DNA of 64,000 bases. Origin: an uncultured Bacillota bacterium. Lineage in GTDB: Bacteria > Bacillota > Dethiobacteria > DTU022 > UBA8154. Positions 13,058-50,440 of this stretch are shown here, piece after piece (within the stretch, counting starts at the first letter, position 1; each line of letters starts with the position of its first letter). The DNA is taken from NCBI GenBank assembly GCA_937973635.1, contig CALJJZ010000017.1, forward strand, positions 130,064-194,063, written 5' to 3'. The position numbers and the translations under genes are program-made. The notes beneath the pieces were generated by a model that ran no database searches, had not been told where the DNA came from, and was given only the letters and a program-made list of their open reading frames with translations.

Positions 13058-13059
13058 AT

Positions 13060-13252
13060 TTTATACCTCGCGGCGGTACCGTTCTGGGATCAGCTCTGCA
13101 AGGGTGGGACATTAAGCGGAGCTGCAGATAGGTCTTCCGACTCTCCCGTCTTTTGCCTACCAGCCCAATAATACGCTGGAAAGCTTCCCTCCCTGCTGCC
13201 GTCCACCGCTTCATAAAAGAGGGAGAAGAGCTCGCTATTAAACCAGTGCCGC
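13060..13252 (-). pseudogene. Remnant of a second GT-GH130 fusion gene
   Basis: Nucleotide match to two separate parts of the intact minus-strand gene at 34323-37913. Bases 13060-13109 match its last codons (34321-34369), and bases 13107-13252 match an internal part (about 35336-35489). About 970 bases between them and everything upstream of 35490 are gone. The two pieces meet at a shared GGG. Substitutions are scattered and no reading frame remains, so it is an old scar. It sits head-to-head with the intact GH130 gene, exactly as the intact fusion sits head-to-head with a GH130 scar. Confidence 0.88.
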
Positions 13253-13285
13253 TTTTTTGACAGAACGTTTTTTTGACAGAACGTT
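13253..13285. repeat. Two tandem 16-base units containing TTGACA
   Basis: The unit TTTTTTGACAGAACGT occurs twice back to back (starting 13253 and 13269). It is absent from the otherwise matching region upstream of 38093, so it arose or was kept only in this copy. Each unit contains TTGACA, but no -10 lies at the right distance from either. Confidence 0.75.
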
Positions 13286-13286
13286 C

Positions 13287-13387
13287 CCAAATTATTTTCT
13301 TTTAAGGATCTTTCTCTGATGTTATAATATGAAGGTACTAGCAGCCCAACATCGTTGACTGGTAATAAAGAGCAAAAGGTGGATTTG
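13287..13387 (+). promoter_or_regulatory. Promoter region of GH130 gene, duplicated at 37991-38092
   Basis: An extended -10, TGTTATAAT (13320-13328), lies about 60 bases before the start codon. The whole block matches 37991-38092 with only scattered differences, and the extended -10 is identical in both. The ribosome site AAAAGGTGG lies six bases before ATG 13388. Confidence 0.7.
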
Positions 13388-14323
13388 ATGTCCTACCAGC
13401 TGGTAAAACGCTACGCTAAAAACCCTATCCTGACACGGGACCATGTCCCCTATCCTGTGGCTACGGTCCACAATGCAGGAGTGGTGAAAACCAACGATCG
13501 TTATATTATGCTTTTTCGCTCCCACCGGCTAAACGGCCGCTCGATTATCGGGCTAGCGGAGAGCAGTGACGGCTTTAACTTTAAGGTGCAGCCCCGTCCT
13601 TTTATTGTGCCGGCGGAAAAGGGGCTCTTTGCCTTATATGAGGAATACGGCGTGGAAGATCCGCGCATCTGCTTCCTAGAGGGGGCTTACTGGATTACTT
13701 ACAGCGCTTACTCCCGCCATGGAGTGCGCATTGCTCTAGCCCGTACAGAGGATTTCCGCACCCTGGAGCGGGTAGCCCTAATCACGCAGGCGGATCACCG
13801 CAACGTCGTGCTCTTCCCGGAGAAATTTGGTGGCCGCTATGCCCGCTTGGACCGGCCCCATTCGGAAATATCCCCTTGGTCTATTTGGCTCTCTTACTCT
13901 CCCGACCTGGTCCACTGGGGGGATTCCCGCGTGCTGATGAAGCCCCTCCAGTACCACTGGGACGAGATGAAGATCGGCCCCGGGGCCACTCCCTTTAAAA
14001 CGCCGCAGGGGTGGCTGCATATCTTTCATGGGGTCTTCCCCACCATGGACGGTGCTATTTACCGCCTGGGTGTGGCCCTGCACGCCCTGGATGACCCTGC
14101 CGTTTTGCGGGGCGTCGCCGACGACTGGATTCTCCAGCCCGAGGATCCCTGGGAAGTGAGTGGCTACGTGCATAATGTTGTCTTTTGCTGCGGCGCGGTG
14201 CCTGAAGAGGATGGGCTGGTAAAAATCTACTGGGGTGGGGCCGATACCGTCGTCTGTGCTGGCACCGCCGCTGTTTCTGAACTGATAGATCTTTGTCTTA
14301 GTCATGGGCGGCCCCCTTTATAG
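13388..14323 (+). CDS. Glycoside hydrolase family 130 protein (beta-mannoside phosphorylase-like)
   Basis: 311 residues forming a five-bladed propeller-type GH130 domain. GH130 enzymes phosphorolyse or hydrolyse beta-mannosides. Seen: N-terminal KNPILTRDHVPYPVATVHNAG, YRSH-like FRSHRLNG, the signature GVEDPRI with the catalytic Asp, TYSAYSRHG, DHRNVVLFPEKFGG, KIGPGATPFKT, WLHIFHGV and near the end VVFCCGAV and YWGGADTVV. Start ATG 13388 follows AAAAGGTGG. It resembles the C-terminal third of the 1196-residue fusion at 34323-37913 and is a separate stand-alone GH130. Substrate is not determined by the sequence. Confidence 0.9.
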   Translation: MSYQLVKRYAKNPILTRDHVPYPVATVHNAGVVKTNDRYIMLFRSHRLNGRSIIGLAESSDGFNFKVQPRPFIVPAEKGLFALYEEYGVEDPRICFLEGAYWITYSAYSRHGVRIALARTEDFRTLERVALITQADHRNVVLFPEKFGGRYARLDRPHSEISPWSIWLSYSPDLVHWGDSRVLMKPLQYHWDEMKIGPGATPFKTPQGWLHIFHGVFPTMDGAIYRLGVALHALDDPAVLRGVADDWILQPEDPWEVSGYVHNVVFCCGAVPEEDGLVKIYWGGADTVVCAGTAAVSELIDLCLSHGRPPL

Positions 14324-14446
14324 CGGCTGGGGAAAAATCAATAGCGGAGAGTTTTGACAGTGCCGCCGCCTGCCTCTTGCCCGCTTGCTGTTTTCAGCTT
14401 TTAGCCCGCAAAAACTCTTTTCTTTTGGCGGCGATGCTGCTAAGGT

Positions 14447-24000: not shown

Positions 24001-24498
24001 ATGAAAAAAGTCTTCTTGTTGTTGCTGGCGGCAGCTCTCCTTTTAAGCTGCAGCGGTTGTACGGTCCTGGAAGAAGCCCACGCTTTTGCCGCGGATTTTC
24101 CGGACAAACACTGGGAAAAAATCTGGGTCATCAAAGAAAGGAAAACGCACCTGTTCATTGCTGAAGAAAATGTTTTCATGGAGGGCTACTGCGTCATCGA
24201 ATACCTGGGCGAGGAACCGGCCCATGATGTGCGCGTAATTATCAGGAGCCCCCTTACGTACGGCTTTATCCCTGACAGCATGGCCCGTTATTACGGTACC
24301 GTCAACCCCGGCGACAAGCTCGAATATATGCTGAAAGCAGAGTTTGACAACTGGCAGGAGCTAATTCCCACCTATATCTTCGAGGAGAAGATTATGGACG
24401 ATTTCCACGGAAACTTTTACGTGGGCATAAGCTGGCGCCAGGACGAGCGGGAATACAAAAAAAGGTTTTTTGAATGGAAAAAAGAAAAGAAGAAATAA
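24001..24498 (+). CDS. Lipoprotein of unknown function
   Basis: 165 residues. A classic lipoprotein signal peptide is followed by two possible lipobox cysteines (LSC at 17, SGC at 20). The mature part has no motif I recognise; it looks like one beta-rich domain (VEGYCVIEYLGEEPAHDVRVII-like strands) ending in a highly charged Lys-rich tail (EYKKRFFEWKKEKKK). It starts after AAAGGAG. It is 42 bases after the GGGPS homologue and convergent with the chromate transporter genes, so it shares a transcript with GGGPS. Confidence 0.7.
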   Translation: MKKVFLLLLAAALLLSCSGCTVLEEAHAFAADFPDKHWEKIWVIKERKTHLFIAEENVFMEGYCVIEYLGEEPAHDVRVIIRSPLTYGFIPDSMARYYGTVNPGDKLEYMLKAEFDNWQELIPTYIFEEKIMDDFHGNFYVGISWRQDEREYKKRFFEWKKEKKK

Positions 24499-24510
24499 TT
24501 AAAGCCATAG

Positions 24511-25035
24511 CTACAGGTAAAAAATAAGGCCGAAAACAGCTCCGGCGGCCACATAGCAAAGCGGGTGCAGGCGGGTAAAAAGGAGCAGAAGAAAACAGGC
24601 GGCGGCAAAGAGGGCGCCGGGGAGGTCAACAACGGCGTTTTTCCCGATGACGTAGGCGGCCAAGCCAATGAGAGCGATCACGGCAGGATGGAGTCCTGCC
24701 ATTACTTTTTTTAACCAGGGGGAATGGGCCAGGCGGGAGAGGAGGTACATGGCCGGGAGGGCGATAAGCAGCGAAGGTAAGACAACCCCCAGCGTGGCCA
24801 CGACAGCCCCGCCTAGACCGGCAACGCGATAGCCGGTAAAAGTGGCCGCGTTAATGGCCAGAGGCCCCGGCGTCATCTCCGCCACAGCGAGGATGTCGAT
24901 GAATTCCGCGCTGCCCAGCCAGCGGTTTACCTGCACTGTTTCATACTGGATGAGGGCCAGCATGGCATAGCCACCCCCAAACCCAAAGAAGCCTATTTTT
25001 AAGAAAGAAAGAAACAAGGACAGCAAAATGGGCAT
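24511..25035 (-). CDS. Chromate transporter family protein, second half (ChrA-like)
   Basis: 174 residues with about five hydrophobic spans, one CHR domain. Seen: FLKIGFFGFGGGYAMLALIQ, LAVAEMTPGPLAINAATFTGY and LGVVLPSLLIA, which match the CHR domain. In many Firmicutes two short CHR proteins make the transporter that is one chain in Pseudomonas ChrA. ATG at 25035 follows GGAGTAGCG; an upstream extension overlaps the partner gene and lacks a ribosome site. It lies eight bases downstream of the other half. Substrate may be chromate or sulfate; unproven. Confidence 0.88.
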   Translation of the reverse strand: MPILLSLFLSFLKIGFFGFGGGYAMLALIQYETVQVNRWLGSAEFIDILAVAEMTPGPLAINAATFTGYRVAGLGGAVVATLGVVLPSLLIALPAMYLLSRLAHSPWLKKVMAGLHPAVIALIGLAAYVIGKNAVVDLPGALFAAACFLLLLFTRLHPLCYVAAGAVFGLIFYL

Positions 25036-25042
25036 TGTTCCG

Positions 25043-25648
25043 CTACTCCTTAAGCTCGCCTGCTCCGGCCTTTTGCAGCGGCAGAAAAAGGCCTGCCAGA
25101 GCTCCGGCGACAATCACAAACAAGGGATGGATATGGAAAACAATAAGCCCCCACAGAAAAAAGGCAAAGAGCAGGAAAAGGTCAGCCCGGCCCCTCAAAA
25201 CTATAAGCCCCAGTTTAACGGCGGCGGCGGCGATCAGGGCCGCTACGGCAGGCCTGATGCCCTGAAACGCGCTGAGGACCAAGGGGTTATCCCTGTACGG
25301 CCATAAAAACATGGAGATGGTGAGTATAATTAAAAAGGAAGGAAGAACCATGGCCAAAAGTGAGATGAGGCTGCCCCTTAGTCCCCTTAAGCGGTATCCG
25401 TTAATTACGGCCAGATTAACGATGATGGGGCCGGGGATGGACTGGGCCAGGGCGAGGTAATCCAGGAAAAGATGGTTATCCAGCCATTTTCGCCGCTCCA
25501 CCAGTTCCGCCTGTAAAAAGGGGATCATGGCCAGGCCGCCGCCAAAAGTAAAAGCGCCGATTTTTAAAAAAATGAGGAAAAACTGGGGCAGGGAGACGCA
25601 GGCCCCGTTCGCCGCTGCTTCCTGGGGCGGCAGCTGCTCTTGCTCCAC
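25043..25648 (-). CDS. Chromate transporter family protein, first half (ChrA-like)
   Basis: 201 residues, CHR domain with FLKIGAFTFGGGLAMIPFLQ, LALAQSIPGPIIVNLAVINGY and LAMVLPSFLII. The PGP motif and Gly-rich first helix are the family hallmarks. It starts with GTG at 25648, ten bases after AAGAGGAG, and is followed on the minus strand by the second half, which presumably forms an antiparallel heterodimer with it. Confidence 0.88.
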   Translation of the reverse strand: MEQEQLPPQEAAANGACVSLPQFFLIFLKIGAFTFGGGLAMIPFLQAELVERRKWLDNHLFLDYLALAQSIPGPIIVNLAVINGYRLRGLRGSLISLLAMVLPSFLIILTISMFLWPYRDNPLVLSAFQGIRPAVAALIAAAAVKLGLIVLRGRADLFLLFAFFLWGLIVFHIHPLFVIVAGALAGLFLPLQKAGAGELKE

Positions 25649-25839
25649 CGGGCGTCAGCTCCTCTTAAGGTATAACCGTATTTTATCCTATGCCCGGGGC
25701 CATGTAAACCTGCTGCTTACCTCTAGAAAAAGATCTATTTGCCCTTGTCCTACGGAAGATAAAAAAAATAAGCCCTGACCTAAAGCCGCTGCCTTCCGGC
25801 CTTGGGCAGAGTTTAATAATTAACGCCAAATTAAAGTAT

Positions 25840-26130
25840 CTAAAACATTAGGTTAGGCAAGAAAATGACAATCTGTGGGAAGGCAATCAAGATGGCTATG
25901 TTGGTTAAATCGGCCAGCACAAAGGGCCAGACTCCTTTAAAGATTTTTTCTATGGGTACTTCGGGTGCAACTCCTTTGATAATATAAACATTCAGACCGA
26001 TAGGCGGAGTGACAACCCCCATTGAAACTACCAATAAAACTATAACGCCAAACCAGATAGGGTCGTAACCCAGGGATGTGACAACAACAGGATAGAAGAT
26101 AGGAATGGTCAGTAGTATCAGAGCATCATC
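25840..26130 (-). pseudogene. 3' remnant of a TRAP transporter large permease (DctM)
   Basis: About 96 codons read DALILLTIPIFYPVVVT, LGYDPIWFGVIVLLV, MGVVTPPIGLNVYIIKGVA and VPIEKIFKGVWPFVLAD, which is the C-terminal end of TRAP DctM. An in-frame TAA lies immediately upstream (about 26133) and no start codon with a ribosome site is present. The rest of the gene and its DctP/DctQ partners are missing. The flanks 25656-25839 and 26131-26320 hold no recognisable gene. Confidence 0.85.
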
Positions 26131-26331
26131 TTAAAGCTTGATTCCTGCCTTATTAAAGTCCTCTTTCCTTACACATTTTCCCCCTACGTTTGTTTCTTCT
26201 ATGTTTGTTTTTTGCTGCTGAATTTGAGTGGCAGCAGCAAGATATGCTTTCTCTCTGCGGGCGGTTATGGAAAAACAGGGAGGAAGAAACAAATTTAAAA
26301 TGCCAATGAACTGGAATTAATGGTATTATTA

Positions 26332-26337
26332 TATAAT
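26332..26337 (+). promoter_or_regulatory. Possible -10 (TATAAT) for the OxlT-like gene
   Basis: TATAAT 22 bases before ATG 26359; no convincing -35. Confidence 0.4.
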
Positions 26338-26358
26338 TGAGTCGAAAGGGGGTTTAAT

Positions 26359-27546
26359 ATGCTCAGCAACGGGGTAAAGGTTACCATCGCCGGTTCTGTG
26401 ATTAACCTATTCATCGGCACATTTTATTCCTGGTCCGTTTTTGCCGGGGGACTGATCCATGAGCTTGGCTGGACAAGGACACAGGCATCTTTACCTTACA
26501 CCGTGGAAGTTCTGGCTTTTGCCGTCATGATGGTGGTGGCGGGGAGGATTCAGGACCGTTTTGGCGCCAGAAAAGCGTCTGTTATCAGCGCCCTGCTGGT
26601 GGGCTTCTCTCTTATCCTCTGCTCCCTTTTCCCCGTTCCCTTGGGGTTGACGCTCTTTTTCGGACTGGTATATGGAACGGGGGCGGCCTTCGGCTATGCC
26701 GCTGTGACCCCGGCGGCCATGAAGTGGTTCCCGCCTGAAAAAAGAGGGCTGGTGACGGGATTCGTGGTTATGAGCCTGGCAGCAGGTTCCCTCTTCTGGC
26801 CGACGATAATCAGCGCCCTCCTGGGAAAGTACGGGGTGGTGCAAACATTTTTCCTCTGGGGCCTGCTCCTGCTGGCAGGGATGTTGATCATGGCCTCTTT
26901 CATCTCCGAACCCCGTATCGACCCTGCTGAGGCCGCAGGGAAAACGGCTGCGGCCAGGTTGCCCTGGGAAAAGATCTTCACCCACCCCACGTTCGTCCTG
27001 CTCTGGCTGATGATGGGCCTGGCTGCAGGGACGGGGCTTATGGTCGTAGGCCACCTGGTTCAGATTGCCGAGCTGGATTTTAGGGTTAAGGGTGGTTTTA
27101 TCTTGGTTTCCTTGTTTGCCCTCTTTAATATGGGAGGGAGGTTCAGTGGCGGGTTGATCACGGATCGCCTCGGCTATGAGAAGGTTTTGTTGTTCTCTTT
27201 CCTCATGAGCCTCGTTTCTATGCTCCTCTTCCTGGTTACGGCAAGCTGGCCGGGTTTGGTGCTGGGCACTGTATTTTTAGGGCTCAGCTACGGCAGTATT
27301 TTTACCGCTTTCCCCGCGGCGATTGTCAATACTTTCGGGTTGTACGACTTTGGAGCGTATTACGGCTTGCTTTTTACCGCCCTGGGAATTGGGGGAAGCC
27401 TAGGACCTTTCCTGGCCGGCACCCTAGCGGATTATTTTGGCACCTACAACATGGCCTTTGTCCTGGGTATGGGGGCAGCACTGCTGGCCTTGGCCCTTTT
27501 GAGCAGGTTGGGCAGGCAAAATTCCCGGCAGGCAGGAAGTGGATAA
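26359..27546 (+). CDS. MFS transporter, OxlT-like (oxalate/formate or monocarboxylate type)
   Basis: 395 residues with 12 predicted membrane spans. N-terminal NLFIGTFYSWSVFAGGLIHELGW and RIQDRFGARKASVIS are typical of the OxlT/monocarboxylate branch, and the loop-8 motif (GRFSGGLITDRLGYEKV) repeats the MFS signature in the second half. It moves a small organic anion by exchange or symport. The ribosome site AAAGGGGG precedes ATG 26359. A second, less related MFS carrier follows 70 bases later. Confidence 0.88.
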   Translation: MLSNGVKVTIAGSVINLFIGTFYSWSVFAGGLIHELGWTRTQASLPYTVEVLAFAVMMVVAGRIQDRFGARKASVISALLVGFSLILCSLFPVPLGLTLFFGLVYGTGAAFGYAAVTPAAMKWFPPEKRGLVTGFVVMSLAAGSLFWPTIISALLGKYGVVQTFFLWGLLLLAGMLIMASFISEPRIDPAEAAGKTAAARLPWEKIFTHPTFVLLWLMMGLAAGTGLMVVGHLVQIAELDFRVKGGFILVSLFALFNMGGRFSGGLITDRLGYEKVLLFSFLMSLVSMLLFLVTASWPGLVLGTVFLGLSYGSIFTAFPAAIVNTFGLYDFGAYYGLLFTALGIGGSLGPFLAGTLADYFGTYNMAFVLGMGAALLALALLSRLGRQNSRQAGSG

Positions 27547-27616
27547 GACTTTGCAAAAATAATATTTTAAAATTATAAGCGTATGGCAAAAAAAAATTGA
27601 GACAGGAGAATGAGCT

Positions 27617-28795
27617 ATGGGAAAAACTTCAACTGTTGCCGAGCAGCCGACTGCTCCTTTATTTACCTTAAACTTTGCCCTAATCTGCATCGCCAATTTA
27701 ACCCTGTACATGGTCTTCTACGGCTTGAACCCCACGCTGCCGATTTATATTGAGCAGTTTGGGGGGACAACGAGGATTGCCGGACTGGCCCTGACCTCCC
27801 TGACCTTGGCGGCGATTATTTCCCGGCCCGTTACGGGGTGGTGTATTGATAGATATGGCCGCAGGTTGTTTTTAATAATTGGTCTTTTATTGTTTCTGCT
27901 ACCTTCCCTGGTTTTTATCCGCATGATTCCCGTAATCTGGTTAATCCTCTTTCGGTTTGTGCAGGGGCTGGGCTGGGGCGTGGGCCATACCGCGGTGACC
28001 AATGTGGCCCTGGATGTTATGCCTCCCCGAAGAATGGGGGAGGGACTGGGGTATTTTACCCTCTTTACCAGTATTGCCATGGCCCTGGCTCCGCCCCTCG
28101 CCCTGTGGCTGATCTACGCCTATTCTTTTCAGCTGCTCTTTATTGTCTGTGCGGCGGTAATCATCTGCACCCTGATAATCACCCTTTTCATAAAGTACCC
28201 ACAGGTGGGAAAAAACCCGGCGGGAGAGCGCCCGGCTTTCCTAGAAAAATCGGCCCTGCTGCCTTCCCTGGTTATCCTGCTGATTATCTTTTCTTACACG
28301 GCAATTGTCTCTTTCCTCGCCCTCTACGCCCTGGAGCTAGGGCTGCAGACGGCAGGGTTTTTCTTTACGGCCATGGCCCTGACCACCATGGCGGCCCGGC
28401 CACTTTCCGGTTATATTGTGGACAGGGCGGGGCAGAAGGGTTTTAACCTCTGTTTTGGGCTGGGAACTGTGGCCCCCATTGTTTCCCTGGTGATCCTCAT
28501 TTTCCTCTCCTCGACCCTGCATCTGGTGCTGGCGGGTCTCCTGTACGGTGTTTGCCTGGGCTTTATCTACTCAACCGTTTTGCTCCTTACCGTCCGCCGT
28601 GCTCCCCCGGAAAGAAAAGGTGCGGCCAACGCCACTTATTGGACGGCAGTGGATATAGGTGTGGCGAGCGGTTCTGTGTGCTGGGGCTTTATCGCTGCGG
28701 ATCTGGGCTACCGACTTATGTTCGGTCTTACCGTAATCCCTTTCCTCCTTGCTCTCTACATTTATTACAGATACAGGCTCAGCAGCACGGCATAA
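27617..28795 (+). CDS. MFS transporter of unknown substrate
   Basis: 392 residues, 12 predicted spans. The MFS signature is SRPVTGWCIDRYGRRLFLI between spans 2 and 3, repeated weakly as ARPLSGYIVDRAGQK in the second half. Other conserved parts are RFVQGLGWGVGHTAVTNVA and MPPRRMGEGLGYF, resembling the drug-efflux/YfkF-like groups. It starts after ACAGGAG. It may be co-transcribed with the OxlT-like gene. No regulator gene lies nearby to suggest a substrate. Confidence 0.87.
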   Translation: MGKTSTVAEQPTAPLFTLNFALICIANLTLYMVFYGLNPTLPIYIEQFGGTTRIAGLALTSLTLAAIISRPVTGWCIDRYGRRLFLIIGLLLFLLPSLVFIRMIPVIWLILFRFVQGLGWGVGHTAVTNVALDVMPPRRMGEGLGYFTLFTSIAMALAPPLALWLIYAYSFQLLFIVCAAVIICTLIITLFIKYPQVGKNPAGERPAFLEKSALLPSLVILLIIFSYTAIVSFLALYALELGLQTAGFFFTAMALTTMAARPLSGYIVDRAGQKGFNLCFGLGTVAPIVSLVILIFLSSTLHLVLAGLLYGVCLGFIYSTVLLLTVRRAPPERKGAANATYWTAVDIGVASGSVCWGFIAADLGYRLMFGLTVIPFLLALYIYYRYRLSSTA

Positions 28796-28926
28796 AGGAA
28801 AAAGAAAAAAGAAAAAAAACATTGCCCTGGCTCTGCCCACAGCATCTGCCGTTACTTCACCTTTTTGCTGGAAGCGCATAGGATCATAAATAAAGATTAT
28901 TTTTAAGCAAAAAGGAAGTGGGGCTG

Positions 28927-34301: not shown

Positions 34302-34325
34302 GCTATGTTAGCGGCATAGCTTTTA
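34302..34325 (+). terminator. Weak hairpin between cwlD and the convergent fusion gene
   Basis: GCTATG (34302-34307) pairs with CATAGC (34315-34320) around a seven-base loop, followed by TTTTATG. It overlaps the last codon of the convergent gene and may stop cwlD transcripts. Confidence 0.45.
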
Positions 34326-37300
34326 TGCTTCGCGGCGATACCGTTCTGGGATCAGCTCTGCAAGGGTGGCGCTGGCCAGGCCGATCACCGTATCCGCTCC
34401 CCCGTAGTACACAAGGATTTCGTCGTCGTCCTCCAGCACTGCCTTATCCTTTGCCGGCACGGCGCCGCAGGTGAAGACCACGTTGGGCACCCAGCTCTCA
34501 CCGGATATCCCTACTTCGTAAGAGTGTTCCGGCTCCAGGATGGGGTTGGGCGAGCGGTAGAGGAGACGGGCCGGGTCATCCAGCGCTGTTAAAAAAACAC
34601 CCAGGCAGTAGCGGAATCTGAAGTCCACACCGTGGTAGATGTTAAGCCAGCCGTACTTCGTCTTTAGGGGCTGGGCGCCGGCGCCAATTTTAAGGGCGTC
34701 CCACATGGCGCCCGAACGGGTGCCGAAGACGATGCGGTGGTTTTCCCGTGGCCAGGGTGTGTCGAAGGTATCGGCATAGGTTACCCAGATGCTGGGGGAG
34801 ATGCGGTGGTACATAGCCAGCTTCCCCTGAAAGCGTTCGGGGAAGAGGACAGCGTCTTTGTTGGGAAAACCGGGGAAGACCAGCCCGTGGCGGTGCCAGT
34901 GCTGCCAGCGCCGGTTTAAAAGATCGTCCTTGGCGATAGAGGCGAGGGCGATCTGGGGCACGATCCCGTCATAGGCGGTATAGAGCATATATATACGCCC
35001 TTCTATTTCCATGAGGCGAGGGTCCTCGCAGCCCATTTTTTCGCTTTTGTCCTCCGGCACAAAGACGGGTTCAGGCAGCCGCTCGTCGATGTGTATCCCG
35101 TCAAGGGTAAGGGCGAGGCCGATGCGGGAGATGCGGTCGTCTCCCACCGCCCGGTAAAAGATGTGTACGGCCCCGTCTACCCGGATGGCACCGCAGTTTA
35201 ACACGTACTTGTTTTCCCAGCTGTGCTCGCTGACAGGGGAGAGGAGGGGGTTAAACTCGGAACGGCGGAGGGTGCCTGCCGGCGGCTGCTCCCGTTCCAG
35301 CTTCTGTTCCAGGACCACATCCTTACATTCCGGCGGGACATTAAGCAGGGCCACAGACAGGTCTTCTGACTCCCGCCCTTTGCCCACCAGCTCGATAATA
35401 CGCTGGAAAACTTCCTCCCTGTTGCCGCCTACCGCTTCATAACAGCGGAAAAAGAGCTCGCTATTAAACCAGCGCCGCTCGATCATCAAAGACAGGGGCG
35501 TAGGTAAGCCTTTGCCTCCTTTAAAGCTGTAGCTGGCCCAGCTCCAAATACAACAGGTTACAAAGACGCCGTCGGGCAAGGTAATCCCCAGGTGGTAGAC
35601 ATCGGCCAGCTTTTTCATCCGTGCCAGCACGTCTTTTAGCTCCACCTCCTTGCCCCCTGTGTAGCCGGCAGCGATCTGGCGCAGGCGATCCCGCAGTATC
35701 TGCTGTTGACGGTTTTCAAAGATGCTGTGGGCGGAGAAGCTGCTCATCCCCCAGTGTCCCTCGATGGAATTTATTACCATGTTGCCGAAGTCTTTTTCTT
35801 TGCTGGCGAAAAACTGCCAAACGCGGCCAAACTCCTCTGCATCGATAATGCTCTTTAGTATAGTGGTAAAGAGGCGGATTTTGGGAAAACGGCCACCGCT
35901 TTCCCAGCGCAGGTTGCTGGAGACGATGCGGCTGGCCAGGTAGTTGAGGGAAGGAGCCTCTTTTATGACGGAGAGGGAGGGAAAGTCCAGGTAATTGACA
36001 ACAAGGGGCTTTATGGGGGATAGGCTAAAATCCTGGGGCCGCAGGTTTTGGCGCAGCCAGTTATTGTTGCGGGCCGAGTATTTGGTTTCCTCTGTCCAGG
36101 CGGTCAGGGCAAGGATATCCAGGGGATCGTGTTCCTGCAGCAGGTCAGCGGTATCCCGGTAACCCCACAGGGTGATGAGGTTGCGGGGCGGGTGTTCCTG
36201 TAAGAGCTTGGCCGCCACCTCCCCCTTCAGGGAAAAGCTCTTAGGCGCAGGCAGCATGTTGAAGATATTAGTTATAATCTGTTCGATCCCTTCCACCGTG
36301 TGGAAGTCGCCGGGCAAAAGTTCGTCCAGATCCCATTCAAACTGCTGCATGAGACGCTGCAGGGCTGTGCCGATCTTTGTGCTTCCGTCCTGCAGGGAGA
36401 GCCCAAACTCCTGCCCGATAAACTGCCGGAAATCCTCGTTGTATTCCTTGAGCAGCTGTTCGTAAATCCCGGCGACGTGGGCCGTTTTGCCGAAACGGGA
36501 ACGGACAACGTGGGGAAGCACGATGGGCACGCCTGGTATGTACTCCCAGTAGGCGATCTCTGGCAGGAATGGTTGCGACGCCTGGTGCTGGTAGCTCCAT
36601 TTTTCTTCAAACAGCTGCCTGCGGGAAAAGAAAGCATCGACCTGTTTGTCCAGGGCGGCGCGGGCGTGGAAGGGGCAGATCGTTTTCTTTTGCACAGGCA
36701 CAGATAGGGCACACCCTTCATAATGAGATACCTCGTTGATAAACCCGGCGATGCGCCCTTCAAAGAGGGGGGCCAGGCTGCGGACCATATCCTCTTTTTG
36801 CAGGCCGGGGAAATAATGGTAGGCGATAAGGCAGTTGTAGACAACGCGGGACCAAAGGGTATCGGAGAAGGCGAAATCGTCCTCGTTTAGAGAAATGATT
36901 TCCTGCAGCTGTACAGCGATCTCTTCCGGAAAAATACGGGACCAGATGGCTTCATAATAGCGGTTGTACCCGCGGCGGAAGTTGTCAATGAAGGGCCGCC
37001 GGTCCGGCGCTGTTACCTCTGCCAGGAAGGTATCCCGGGGGCCGAAAATAAGGGGGGAACGGAGTGTTGCTGGCCTTCCTCTCCATACTTCCTGTGTTTC
37101 GCCGATAAACTGGAAAATTAGCTCGGCGATCTGCACAAAAATGTTGCCCAAGCTTACAGGGAGGGATACCTTGGGCTTGTGTCCCAGGTATACCTCTGCA
37201 ATCTCTCCCCTGTGGTGGAGTAGCGTATAAAGGAGAAGGGAGGCGTCGATGGCGTACTCAGTAATATGTTCACCCAGCCTGATGAAGTCTGCCAGAAAAC

Positions 37301-37913
37301 CAGGGATCAGCTTGCTGGAGACAGCCAGATTGGCGCCTACGCAGCCCTGCAGATCTACCCCGTAAAAGGAGGCGAGGAGAGGGAAGTAAAAATGTTCGGC
37401 GATGGCATTGCCCAAGAGGGAGTGCTTTAGGCGGGGCAGGACGAAGGAGGCCTGCTCTTGCAGGATCGGCTGGTACAGGAGCTTTATCCAGTCGGGGGTG
37501 GGCCCCGGTTCGTTCCTGCGCTTGGCCTCCAGCATAAGATCCGGCTCCAGGACGACGAGGTCGGCATCCAAGGCCAGAGTCAAATCCATAAGGCCGCGCA
37601 TGGACCAGCCCCGTCCCCACAACTTTTTCGTGAGGAAGCTGAAATTAATTATATTTTGCTTTGTCTGGCTGAACGGTTTTAGGGTCTGCTGCACGGAGCG
37701 GGCAAAGGGGTTGATCGGGCAGATAATGGCCCATCTCAAATCAGGGAAAAAGGTCTCCAAGCCTTTCTGCACTGCCTGGAGGACATAGGCAGCTTCTTCT
37801 GTGTCGCGCTGGAAAGGGACGCCGACAACGAGATCTGCTTTTCCCAATCCCTTTGCCCGGTTCAGGGCGGGGGCTAGGCTTTTTTTATACAGAGTTTCCA
37901 GCGCATTATCCAT
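34323..37913 (-). CDS. Fusion of a GT-A glycosyltransferase-like domain with a C-terminal GH130 domain
   Basis: 1196 residues. Residues about 1-300 look like a retaining GT-A enzyme of the glucosyl/mannosyl-3-phosphoglycerate synthase type: DLVVGVPFQRDTEEAAYVL, the DxD-like LDADLVVLEPDL, TPDWIKLLYQPIL and YGVDLQGCVGANLAVSSKL. About 300-850 is a long helical region I cannot assign. About 855-1196 is a GH130 propeller with GCEDPRLME (catalytic Asp), VLFPERFQGKLAM, LKIGAGAQPLKT, WLNIYHGV and VVFTCGAVPA. No signal peptide, so cytosolic. ATG 37913 lies six bases after GGAGGAG. It may make and phosphorolyse a glycosylated solute or polysaccharide; the substrate is not known. Confidence 0.82.
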   Translation of the reverse strand: MDNALETLYKKSLAPALNRAKGLGKADLVVGVPFQRDTEEAAYVLQAVQKGLETFFPDLRWAIICPINPFARSVQQTLKPFSQTKQNIINFSFLTKKLWGRGWSMRGLMDLTLALDADLVVLEPDLMLEAKRRNEPGPTPDWIKLLYQPILQEQASFVLPRLKHSLLGNAIAEHFYFPLLASFYGVDLQGCVGANLAVSSKLIPGFLADFIRLGEHITEYAIDASLLLYTLLHHRGEIAEVYLGHKPKVSLPVSLGNIFVQIAELIFQFIGETQEVWRGRPATLRSPLIFGPRDTFLAEVTAPDRRPFIDNFRRGYNRYYEAIWSRIFPEEIAVQLQEIISLNEDDFAFSDTLWSRVVYNCLIAYHYFPGLQKEDMVRSLAPLFEGRIAGFINEVSHYEGCALSVPVQKKTICPFHARAALDKQVDAFFSRRQLFEEKWSYQHQASQPFLPEIAYWEYIPGVPIVLPHVVRSRFGKTAHVAGIYEQLLKEYNEDFRQFIGQEFGLSLQDGSTKIGTALQRLMQQFEWDLDELLPGDFHTVEGIEQIITNIFNMLPAPKSFSLKGEVAAKLLQEHPPRNLITLWGYRDTADLLQEHDPLDILALTAWTEETKYSARNNNWLRQNLRPQDFSLSPIKPLVVNYLDFPSLSVIKEAPSLNYLASRIVSSNLRWESGGRFPKIRLFTTILKSIIDAEEFGRVWQFFASKEKDFGNMVINSIEGHWGMSSFSAHSIFENRQQQILRDRLRQIAAGYTGGKEVELKDVLARMKKLADVYHLGITLPDGVFVTCCIWSWASYSFKGGKGLPTPLSLMIERRWFNSELFFRCYEAVGGNREEVFQRIIELVGKGRESEDLSVALLNVPPECKDVVLEQKLEREQPPAGTLRRSEFNPLLSPVSEHSWENKYVLNCGAIRVDGAVHIFYRAVGDDRISRIGLALTLDGIHIDERLPEPVFVPEDKSEKMGCEDPRLMEIEGRIYMLYTAYDGIVPQIALASIAKDDLLNRRWQHWHRHGLVFPGFPNKDAVLFPERFQGKLAMYHRISPSIWVTYADTFDTPWPRENHRIVFGTRSGAMWDALKIGAGAQPLKTKYGWLNIYHGVDFRFRYCLGVFLTALDDPARLLYRSPNPILEPEHSYEVGISGESWVPNVVFTCGAVPAKDKAVLEDDDEILVYYGGADTVIGLASATLAELIPERYRREA

Positions 37914-37990
37914 AGGTATCTCCTCCACTAAAAAAGATTATTGTTAAATAATATTCTACTTGTTGCGTCCCTTTCCTTTTAATTAAGCCC

Positions 37991-38092
37991 CCCAAATTAT
38001 TTTCTTTTAAGGATCCTTCCCTGATGTTATAATATGGAGGTACTAGCGGACTAGCATAGTTGACTGGTAATAAAGGGCAAAAGGTGAGTTTG
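37991..38092 (+). repeat. Second copy of the GH130 promoter region
   Basis: Matches 13287-13387 with scattered differences and keeps the extended -10 TGTTATAAT (38025-38033) and the AAAAGGTG ribosome site. Here it leads into a GH130 scar and so may drive only a short non-coding transcript, or the acyl-CoA ligase gene 380 bases further on. Confidence 0.85.
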
Positions 38093-38228
38093 ATGTCCTG
38101 CCAGCTGGTAAAACGCTACGCTAAAAACCTTATCTTGATGCGGGGCCTGTCTCCTATCCTGTGGCTACGATCCATAATATTGCCCTGGCCCGCACAGCGG
38201 CCCCCTTTATAGCGACTGGTGAAAAGGC
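38093..38228 (+). pseudogene. Remnant of a second stand-alone GH130 gene
   Basis: Three pieces of the intact GH130 gene remain in order. Bases 38093-38180 match its first 88 bases (13388-13475), 38179-38198 match about 13731-13750, and 38198-38228 match its stop region (about 14308-14336). About 250 and 560 bases are deleted between them. Substitutions remove a usable frame. It faces the intact fusion gene across the duplicated promoter. The next 187 bases (38229-38415) hold only a TTGACA (38316-38321) with a poor -10. Confidence 0.88.
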
Positions 38229-38415
38229 TAGGGCAAAATTGTTCGAGCTGCCTGAAGGAGATTTGCCTAGGAAAGTAGAAATGGAACCTCTGCAATCCCC
38301 CAAAACCTATACAGTTTGACAAAGTGGCATGTAGGAATTAATTTCTCCCTGGAGAATAAAATAAGTGTGCTAAGCGAAGAAGTATTTGCTAGCTGAGCGA
38401 AGGAGGCTGGGTTTC

Positions 38416-48001: not shown

Positions 48002-50440
48002 TTATCTGATGACGGTGATCTCCCGAGTCTGGCTGTTCCAGTCCACCTGGCAGCCCAGGGCCTCGGAGATGAAGCGCAGGGGCATCATCGTTCGGCCGGG
48101 AGGCACAATTACAGGCATCACCCGGGCGTTGTCGGGGTCGATGGCCCTGCTCACGCCGTTAACCCGGGCTGTATTAGAGTTTACCCAGAGCTCGATGCGG
48201 TTGTTTGCCTGGGTAATGGTAATCTTGAGCTCCCTTTCGTTCCACTCCACCCTGGCGCCGATGGCTTCAGCCACATAGCGGATGGGCAGGAGGGTCCTCC
48301 CTTCCAGCATAATAGGAGGCGCATCCATAACCATGGTGCGGCCGTCCACCTGGTAGGAGATCTGGCCCACGCGCAGCCTGATTTCGGTCCTGGTGCGCTG
48401 GGGCGTGGTAGCTGCGGCTTCGTTGGAGTAGGGCGAATTTCCGAAAACGTTATAGGCCCTTACCCGGTAGGTATAACGGGTTTCCGGGGCAACACCGTTA
48501 TCCATGTAAGTGGTCGTATTGGCCGGGACGGCGGCGATCTGAGTAAAGCTGCCCGTGCCCGTGCGCCGCTCGATGTAGAAGCCGTTCTCGTCCTGGGAGT
48601 GATCGGACCAGGAGAGGAGGAGCTGCTCACCGGAGAGGGGTGTGGCCACTAGGTTGGCGGGGGCGGCGGGCACACCATGGGTGGTGGCCCGGGTTTCATT
48701 GCTGTGGGCGGAATTGCCCACGGCGGTGTAGGCGCGCACGCGGTAGGTATATTCGGTGCCCATGGCCAGGCCCGTATCCGTATAAGAGGTGGTGTTGGCG
48801 GTAACAGTGGCGATCTGGGTGAAGCTGCCCGTGCCCGTGCGCCGTTCGATCTGGAAGCCGCTCTCGTTGTTGGCTTTATCTTCCCAGGTCAGGAGGATAC
48901 GGTTTTGGTCCAGGGCTGACGCCGCCAGGTTTGCAGGGGCTTCGGGGAGTGAACCCGTAAGGGCCGTGGCCTCGTTGGAATAGGCCGAGTCGCCGGCGTC
49001 GTTGTAGGCCCGCACGCGGTAGGTGTACTGGGTATTGTTGGCGAGCCCCGTATTCGAGTACGAGGTCACGTTGGCTCCTACGGTGCCCACTTCTGTAAAG
49101 CTGTCTGTGCCTGTGCGCCGTTCGATCTTAAAGCCACTCTCGTTGTTGGCGTTGTCCGTCCAGGTGAGATCGATGCGGGAGGTAGAGACGGTGACAGCCA
49201 CCAGGTTTGTGGGAGCGGCGGGAACCTGGCCCGTAGAGACCGTGGCCTCGTTGGAATAGGCCGAGTCGCCGGCGTTGTTTGTGGCCCGCACGCGGTAGGT
49301 GTACTGGGTATTGTTGGCGAGCCCCGTATTCGAGTACGAGGTCACGTTGGCTCCGACGGTGGCGATCTGGGTGAAGCTGCCCGTGCCCGTGCGCCGTTCG
49401 ATCTTAAAGCCCGTTTCGTTGTTAGCATTGTCCGTCCAGGTAAGGTTGATCTGGCTGGAGGAAGCCCGCACGGCGGAAAGCTCAGTGGGAGCGGCGGGGA
49501 CGCCCGTCCTCAAAGTGATCTGGTTGGAGGGGTTGGATTCTCCGGCGTCGTTGTAGGCCCGCACGCGGTAGGTGTACTGGGTATTGTTGGCGAGCCCCGT
49601 GTTGGCAAAGGTGGTTACATTGGCTCCTACGGTGCCCACTTCTGTAAAGCTGCCCGCGCCTGTTTGCCGCTCGATCTTAAAGCCGCTCTCGTTGTTGGCG
49701 TTGTCTGCCCACGAAAGCCTGATCTCGTTGGTGGAGACAAAGGTGTACGTAAGGGCGGTGGGGGCGGCCGGTATCCCCGTAATGACCGTAACTTCGTTGG
49801 AGGGGGTGGAATGATCGGCACCGATTTTAAAGGCCCTGACGCGGTAGGTATAGGTAGTATTTGGCTGTAGCCCGATATTGTCGTACATCGTGATGTTAGG
49901 ACCCAGGGTGGCCACGAGGCTGAAATTTACATCGCTCCCCGTCCGGCGCTCCACAATGAAACCGTCCTCGTCGTTGGCGTTGTCCTGCCAGGTGAGCCGG
50001 ACCTGCGTTCCGGAAATTAAAGCGGCCGTCAGGTTGGTGGGCGCAGTAGGGGCGACCCCCGGGGTGATCACGGAAGCCTCGGCGTAATCGGAAAAGCCGC
50101 CGTTGTTAAAAGCGCGCACGCGGTAATAATAAGTGGTGGCCGGCACGAAATTAAAAATATCGCTAAATAAAGTGATATTGTTCCCTACGGTAGCAATTTC
50201 AATGTAATTGTTTGTATCCGTTCCCCGTTCAATCTTAAAGCCCAGCTCATTGTTGGCGTTGTCCTGCCAGGTGAGCCGGACCTGCGTTCCGGTCTCGGCG
50301 ACGGCGGTCAGATTGGTGGGGGCCGCCGGGGGAGGCTGCTGGCCGCCCGCCGCACCGGCAAAAAATGTGGAGAGCAGCACGAGTACAAACAACAAGGAGA
50401 ACCAACGCCTGGCCTTACGCAGCTTCTTCATCTCTTTCAC
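48002..50440 (-). CDS. Secreted protein with seven FN3 repeats and a copper-amine-oxidase-like stalk domain
   Basis: 812 residues. A signal peptide of about 34 residues (LLFVLVLLSTFFAGAAGG) is followed by seven fibronectin type III domains of about 90 residues each. Each is marked by LTWxDNANNExGFxIERRTG and NTxYTYRVRA. The last about 130 residues form a Cu_amine_oxidN1-type stalk (MLEGRTLLPIRYVAEAIGARVEW, then MMPLRFISEALGCQVDWN), common in secreted clostridial proteins. It starts with GTG 50440 or ATG 50431 after AGAAGGGG. Middle repeats are nearly identical at DNA level, which shows recent unit exchange. Probably a cell-surface or matrix adhesin. Confidence 0.85.
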   Translation of the reverse strand: MKEMKKLRKARRWFSLLFVLVLLSTFFAGAAGGQQPPPAAPTNLTAVAETGTQVRLTWQDNANNELGFKIERGTDTNNYIEIATVGNNITLFSDIFNFVPATTYYYRVRAFNNGGFSDYAEASVITPGVAPTAPTNLTAALISGTQVRLTWQDNANDEDGFIVERRTGSDVNFSLVATLGPNITMYDNIGLQPNTTYTYRVRAFKIGADHSTPSNEVTVITGIPAAPTALTYTFVSTNEIRLSWADNANNESGFKIERQTGAGSFTEVGTVGANVTTFANTGLANNTQYTYRVRAYNDAGESNPSNQITLRTGVPAAPTELSAVRASSSQINLTWTDNANNETGFKIERRTGTGSFTQIATVGANVTSYSNTGLANNTQYTYRVRATNNAGDSAYSNEATVSTGQVPAAPTNLVAVTVSTSRIDLTWTDNANNESGFKIERRTGTDSFTEVGTVGANVTSYSNTGLANNTQYTYRVRAYNDAGDSAYSNEATALTGSLPEAPANLAASALDQNRILLTWEDKANNESGFQIERRTGTGSFTQIATVTANTTSYTDTGLAMGTEYTYRVRAYTAVGNSAHSNETRATTHGVPAAPANLVATPLSGEQLLLSWSDHSQDENGFYIERRTGTGSFTQIAAVPANTTTYMDNGVAPETRYTYRVRAYNVFGNSPYSNEAAATTPQRTRTEIRLRVGQISYQVDGRTMVMDAPPIMLEGRTLLPIRYVAEAIGARVEWNERELKITITQANNRIELWVNSNTARVNGVSRAIDPDNARVMPVIVPPGRTMMPLRFISEALGCQVDWNSQTREITVIR

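Follow-up and report, generated by a model that had tools for sequence, protein, structure and literature searches.

How could two genes on one contig each come to stand beside the dead remains of the other? This question is raised by two loci in a 64,000-nucleotide stretch of DNA (hereafter the window, G000:C17:130064-194063) from an uncultured Bacillota bacterium. One gene encodes a stand-alone protein of the GH130 family, a putative phosphorylase, and the other, on the opposite strand, encodes a fusion of a large glycosyltransferase-like (GT) part with a GH130 domain. The window lies within a 194-kb contig (C17) of a draft genome of 2.56 Mb (98 contigs, 96% complete), for which protein searches returned mostly Dethiobacter and other Bacillota metagenome assemblies as named relatives. 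We regard it as highly probable that a divergent pair of these two genes was duplicated, and that each copy then lost the gene which the other kept.

The window was compared with itself by BLAST, and both copies were then globally aligned. Positions 13286-13474 matched 37991-38178 (88.9% identity, E 3e-64), 13103-13253 matched 35332-35479 (84.1% identity, E 1e-38), and 13059-13107 matched 34321-34369 (93.9% identity, E 9e-14). Homology starts at 13059 and 34321 and stops at 14336 and 38225, and both ends match to the base, the left one 2 bp beyond the fusion stop and the right one about 13 bp past the GH130 stop. The copies have the same orientation and lie 21 kb apart. The duplication within the window comprises this two-gene unit only, and the contig gave no further match to it. 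The block common to both copies is the promoter side of GH130 only, and the best match spans the non-coding upstream region, promoter included (89% over 189 bp). Hence, the similarity extends beyond the conserved GH130 codons. When this promoter block was searched for in 23 genomes of the family and 71 of the order (own genome included), it was present twice in the own genome and in no other genome of the order. Relatives carry neither locus, and no further copy of the unit was found on the contig or elsewhere in the own genome.

The original prediction, made from the letters of the window, had placed a fusion scar at 13060-13252, a promoter block at 13287-13387 shared with 37991-38092, and an intact GH130 gene at 13388-14323. 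All of them were confirmed, the scar with its bounds corrected to 13059-13253 and the block to 13286-13387 = 37991-38090. The scar had been described as carrying one 970-base deletion and having lost its upstream part. Both hold, the deletion measuring 967 bp, and a second deletion of 2,511 bp and a 32-bp filler have to be added. The wreck of 195 bp is 94% identical to 34321-34367 and 84% identical to 35335-35479, and the 2,511-bp deletion removed the fusion start together with the fusion's own promoter. The proposed mirror case at the other locus was borne out by the global alignment, in which a GH130 scar in pieces (38091-38178; 38179-38196 = 13730-13747; 38197-38225 = 14308-14336) stands beside the intact fusion. 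The outcome that would have refuted the prediction, a single locus in related genomes with scar similarity confined to conserved GH130 codons, was not obtained.

Table 1. Features of the two copies of the unit, with positions in the window. The extended -10 elements were read from the sequence.
Feature	Position	Strand	Details
Copy 1, wreck of the GT-GH130 fusion	13059-13253	-	3' end 13059-13105, 967-bp deletion, then 13106-13253; self-BLAST and alignment
Filler with tandemly repeated TTTTTGACAGAACG motif, 32 bp	13254-13285		At the 2,511-bp deletion; alignment
Copy 1, shared GH130 upstream block	13286-13387	+	89% to 37991-38090; extended -10 TGTTATAAT at 13320-13328
Copy 1, intact GH130 gene, 311 aa	13388-14323	+	Pfam PF04041, E 7e-54; 74-76% aa identity to relatives
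Copy 1, right end of duplicated unit	14324-14336		Homology ends at 14336; alignment
Copy 2, left end of duplicated unit	34321-34322		2 bp beyond the fusion stop; self-BLAST and alignment
Copy 2, intact GT-GH130 fusion	34323-37928	-	1201 aa from GTG, 1196 aa from ATG at 37913; Pfam PF04041 at residues 909-1193
Fusion upstream region, 62 bp, lost from copy 1	37929-37990	-	Weak promoter-like site 37982-37953
Copy 2, orphaned GH130 promoter block	37991-38090	+	Extended -10 TGTTATAAT at 38025-38033
Copy 2, wreck of the GH130 gene and right unit end, 135 bp	38091-38225	+	Start codon retained; 255- and 560-bp deletions, frameshifting indels

Are the scars true dead genes? A base-by-base comparison with a count of scar substitutions, as the original prediction had proposed, was run. 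The copies differed at 48 of 420 aligned bases (11%; 43 transitions and 5 transversions), with a Kimura two-parameter distance of about 0.08-0.16 across the four longer aligned pieces. To polarise each difference, aligned codons from at most eleven relatives were used, with seven to nine available at most sites. With both scars pooled, 18 changes at codon positions 1+2 fell on the scar side, none on the intact side, and 1 was a tie; all 18 resolvable differences at these positions are thus in the scars, at both loci. At codon position 3, the corresponding numbers were 7, 6 and 3 ties. The 18 to 0 distribution indicates that selection has maintained both intact genes during the drift of the two scars. 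Therefore, each scar was once a real gene, and its decay was unhindered while selection continued to act on its partner. On the scar side, 18 changes in about 194 sites at positions 1+2 compare with 7 in about 97 sites at position 3. As positions 1+2 change as fast as position 3, constraint on the lost copies would have gone early after the duplication, a timing derived from small counts.

The age of the pair was approached through relatives. The undivided divergent fusion/GH130 pair, which the original prediction had suggested looking for in related genomes, was found in none of them, whether by the fusion protein (23 genomes of the family and 98 of the class) or by the promoter block. The intact fusion does have orthologues in other genomes of the class. 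In four genomes of the same family (G014, G019, G010 and G016) it is a plus-strand gene, flanked by homologues of window genes 24001 and 28918 and transcribed divergently from a large GT4 gene; beyond it lie genes for a mannose-1-phosphate guanylyltransferase, a mannose-isomerase-like cupin and a phosphomannomutase (named by sequence resemblance). The stand-alone GH130 gene of G010, G016 and G019 has a different location, where it follows a small GT4 gene (separated from it by one gene in G019), and in another family (L072, L108) the fusion, the small GT4 and GH130 are colinear. Because the fusion has a different location in relatives, or both genes are colinear there, the divergent pair was built recently in this lineage and is not ancestral in the family. 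Hence, the proposal that an ancestral pair was duplicated and lost opposite genes holds for the duplication and the losses, given the unit ends, the promoter block and the scar decay, but not for the ancestral status. No remains of the fusion were found at the family's usual site in the window (about 24498-28918).

Meanwhile, both sites are empty in a genome of the same genus, G004, the nearest relative testable for four-fold site divergence. There, homologues of 33540 and 38386 lie about 100 bp apart at the copy-2 site, and homologues of 5755 and 14488 adjoin at the copy-1 site. G003 (same genus), G014 and G009 (another genus) likewise have an empty copy-2 site. Divergence from the own genome at four-fold sites is 40% for G004 and 49% for G003, against 11% between the two copies. 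Thus, the pair and its duplication most likely arose after the split from G004. The absence of an undivided pair from the nearest relatives is then expected, since they split off before the duplication.

In the fusion tree, the own fusion falls inside the family clade (support 100/100) on a long branch, and the G003 copy groups with that of G009; the GH130 tree was weakly resolved. It should be further pointed out that in two genomes of the same genus, G003 (L083, C14) and G002 (L115, C64), fusion or GT4 genes resemble those of G009 far more than those of the window (81% aa identity for GT4, a short joint branch for the fusion, short contigs). Their likeness to G009 would be due to recent transfer or misbinning. 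Relics were seen as well: in G004, a fusion 3' end lies directly behind the stop codon of another gene (L084, G004:C78, 3718-3828), and homologues of window genes 22208 and 23227 flank what is likely a relic of GH130 (L141, G004:C23, about 13771-13860; 92% over 37 bp). In G012, of another genus, a fusion relic of 39 aa was found (L085, G012:C9, 5466-5582). The fusion and GH130 genes have been lost repeatedly in this family.

On these grounds, the following history is proposed. The divergent block of fusion and GH130 would have been assembled in this lineage of the class Dethiobacteria and then copied as a whole, without inversion, to another site at a distance of 21 kb. Each copy would subsequently have lost the gene kept by the other, through small deletions and point decay, so that two neighbouring genes became separated and neither function was lost. 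We infer this order of events, as well as an origin of the second copy from inside the genome rather than by import. Several points weigh against this history. No genome with the undivided pair was found, and the initial state is deduced from its two halves; the aligned sample is short (420 bp); and the copying mechanism is not visible, as neither a transposase nor a terminal inverted repeat nor a target duplication was seen in the sequence read. Specifically, no terminal inverted repeats or target duplication were seen in the alignment at the unit ends (13059, 14336, 34321 and 38225), where such traces could have decayed, and no transposase was noticed among the window open reading frames read, no profile search having been made for transposases. 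As to mobile carriage, a pattern scan gave no relative of GH130 in viral contigs, and among the plasmid records listed only GH130 domains covering <30% of the fusion were found. A tandem duplication of the 21-kb segment was considered and set aside as unneeded, since the gene order is the same in G004, where both sites are empty.

The same observations have to be read against other explanations. If the divergent pair had entered twice by horizontal transfer from donors about 11% apart, with decay of the opposite side after each entry, both sites would also be empty in G004, and the grouping of the G003 copy with G009 makes clear that the fusion is exchanged or misbinned in this genus. However, unit ends matching to the base in both copies are unexpected for independent imports, no donor with a divergent pair was found, and the GC content of the fusion and GH130 (0.56-0.57) is that of the region (neighbours 0.52-0.59). 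Two imports are therefore improbable. An older duplication whose copies were kept alike by gene conversion would lead us to underestimate its age. Direct repeats in bacteria often undergo such conversion, but precise double losses would be required to empty both sites in G004 and the copy-2 site in G003, G014 and G009, which makes this explanation highly improbable. Given a draft genome in 98 contigs, an assembly artefact or chance similarity also has to be weighed; its probability is close to nil, for the copies differ by 11% with structured and polarised changes, both lie inside one 194-kb contig, and the E-values range from 1e-14 to 3e-64.

The role of selection is a separate matter. According to the SNAP hypothesis (Brandis and Hughes 2020, PMC7055797), a segment is duplicated and different genes are lost from each copy, giving a new gene order. 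A selected relocation of this kind, in which the duplication was kept for useful extra dosage and complementary losses locked it in, would be compatible with duplication and reciprocal loss as its selected version. The sequence of states fits that model, and both retained genes are under constraint. Nevertheless, neutral complementary loss gives the same pattern: under neutrality, two independent losses hit opposite copies with probability 1/2, so selection for separation or for dosage is not required to explain the reciprocal outcome. The second copies would also have escaped constraint early, leaving little time for dosage selection, and this argues mildly against a long dosage phase. We thus consider selected relocation unlikely, and infer that chance rather than selection set which copy kept which gene. 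The suggestion that the two genes are needed in different places, or that dosage mattered, is accordingly unsupported. A bolder view would see in the pair a small, discrete block that reaches new sites by copying, with no transposase in sight, and is sorted afterwards through complementary loss, the relics in G004 and G012 marking repeated selected rounds of copy and relocation; we hold this to be a long shot.

Duplication followed by reciprocal loss resembles SNAP in that different genes were lost from two copies. It differs in that the unit comprises two genes instead of a large segment duplicated between direct repeats, that the copies are dispersed with the intervening 20 kb unduplicated, and that both scars are still readable. 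In the tandem duplication - random loss model of mitochondrial gene order, direct duplication and complementary loss likewise part neighbouring genes, but the copies here are not tandem; a tandem origin would require the exact loss of one 20-kb spacer, of which no trace was found. Two homologous copies of a multi-gene unit in one genome, each retaining the gene whose dead remains are recognisable in the other, with constraint on the retained copies and neutral decay of the lost ones, make this a well-preserved and unusually legible case of a known process, with no new mechanism or function. Complementary loss is often invoked for gene-order change, while the intermediate is usually erased. Here both scars can be read and both losses prove to be neutral decay against constrained partners, which provides models such as SNAP with one dated and checkable bacterial case.

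What the two genes encode was assessed by homology. PF04041 (GH130) was detected in both (183 and 172 bits, gathering cut-off 26), and both GH130s align along their length with characterised phosphorylases; three phosphate-binding basic residues separate GH130 phosphorylases from hydrolases (PMC4599007). The stand-alone protein is closest to TM1225 and Uhgb_MP, and its best NCBIfam models are beta-mannobiose phosphorylases, all below their cut-offs. The N-terminal part of the fusion had no Pfam or sequence-level PDB match. Its N-terminal domain has a GT-A-like predicted fold (best GtrB, E 1e-6, and GpgS, E 4e-6, also MpgS) at a mean predicted local distance difference test score of only 57, and it may be a GT-A-like glycosyltransferase, with low model confidence. 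A model of the whole 898-residue N-terminal part was too uncertain and was not used. The remaining genes of the presumed pathway are located on this contig too (C17:60-66.5 kb): a small GT4, a large GT4 and a fused guanylyltransferase-cupin-mutase. Judging from homology and neighbours, both genes probably act in beta-1,2-mannan / GDP-mannose metabolism.

Teth514_1788 and Teth514_1789, the beta-1,2-mannoside phosphorylases of Thermoanaerobacter (PMC4264767), similarly are two GH130 enzymes in a GDP-mannose gene context, whereas here one GH130 has a large N-terminal part fused to it, which includes a GT-A-like domain, and the stand-alone one has other closest relatives. By comparison with that cluster, synthesis and phosphorolysis of beta-mannan is a likely role. 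The different closest relatives of the two GH130s fit the retention of both.

Some further features of the region were observed. In this genus, the mannose-1-phosphate guanylyltransferase, mannose-isomerase-like cupin and phosphomannomutase are fused in one frame of about 1,020-1,060 aa (L129, G000:C17:60003-63074; L134, 9789-12968), whereas in relatives they are three separate genes. Positions 38226-38331, which separate the copy-2 unit end from the promoter of the AMP-ligase gene (38386), hold an open frame, ARAKLFELPEGDLPRKVEMEPLQSPKTYTV (beginning ARAKLFELPEGDL), which is missing from the empty sites and had no convincing relative in the fetched DNA. The AMP-ligase gene has a conserved upstream block, GTAGGAATT with GGAGAAT about 14 bp further (38325-38365; window and relatives L142, L144, L148 and L149), which resembles a sigma-H promoter and outlasted the copy-2 insertion. 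Finally, the minus-strand gene 48002-50440 contains internal repeats at 48405-50331 (spacing about 276 and 550 bp, 66-80% identical), which are probably repeated domains.
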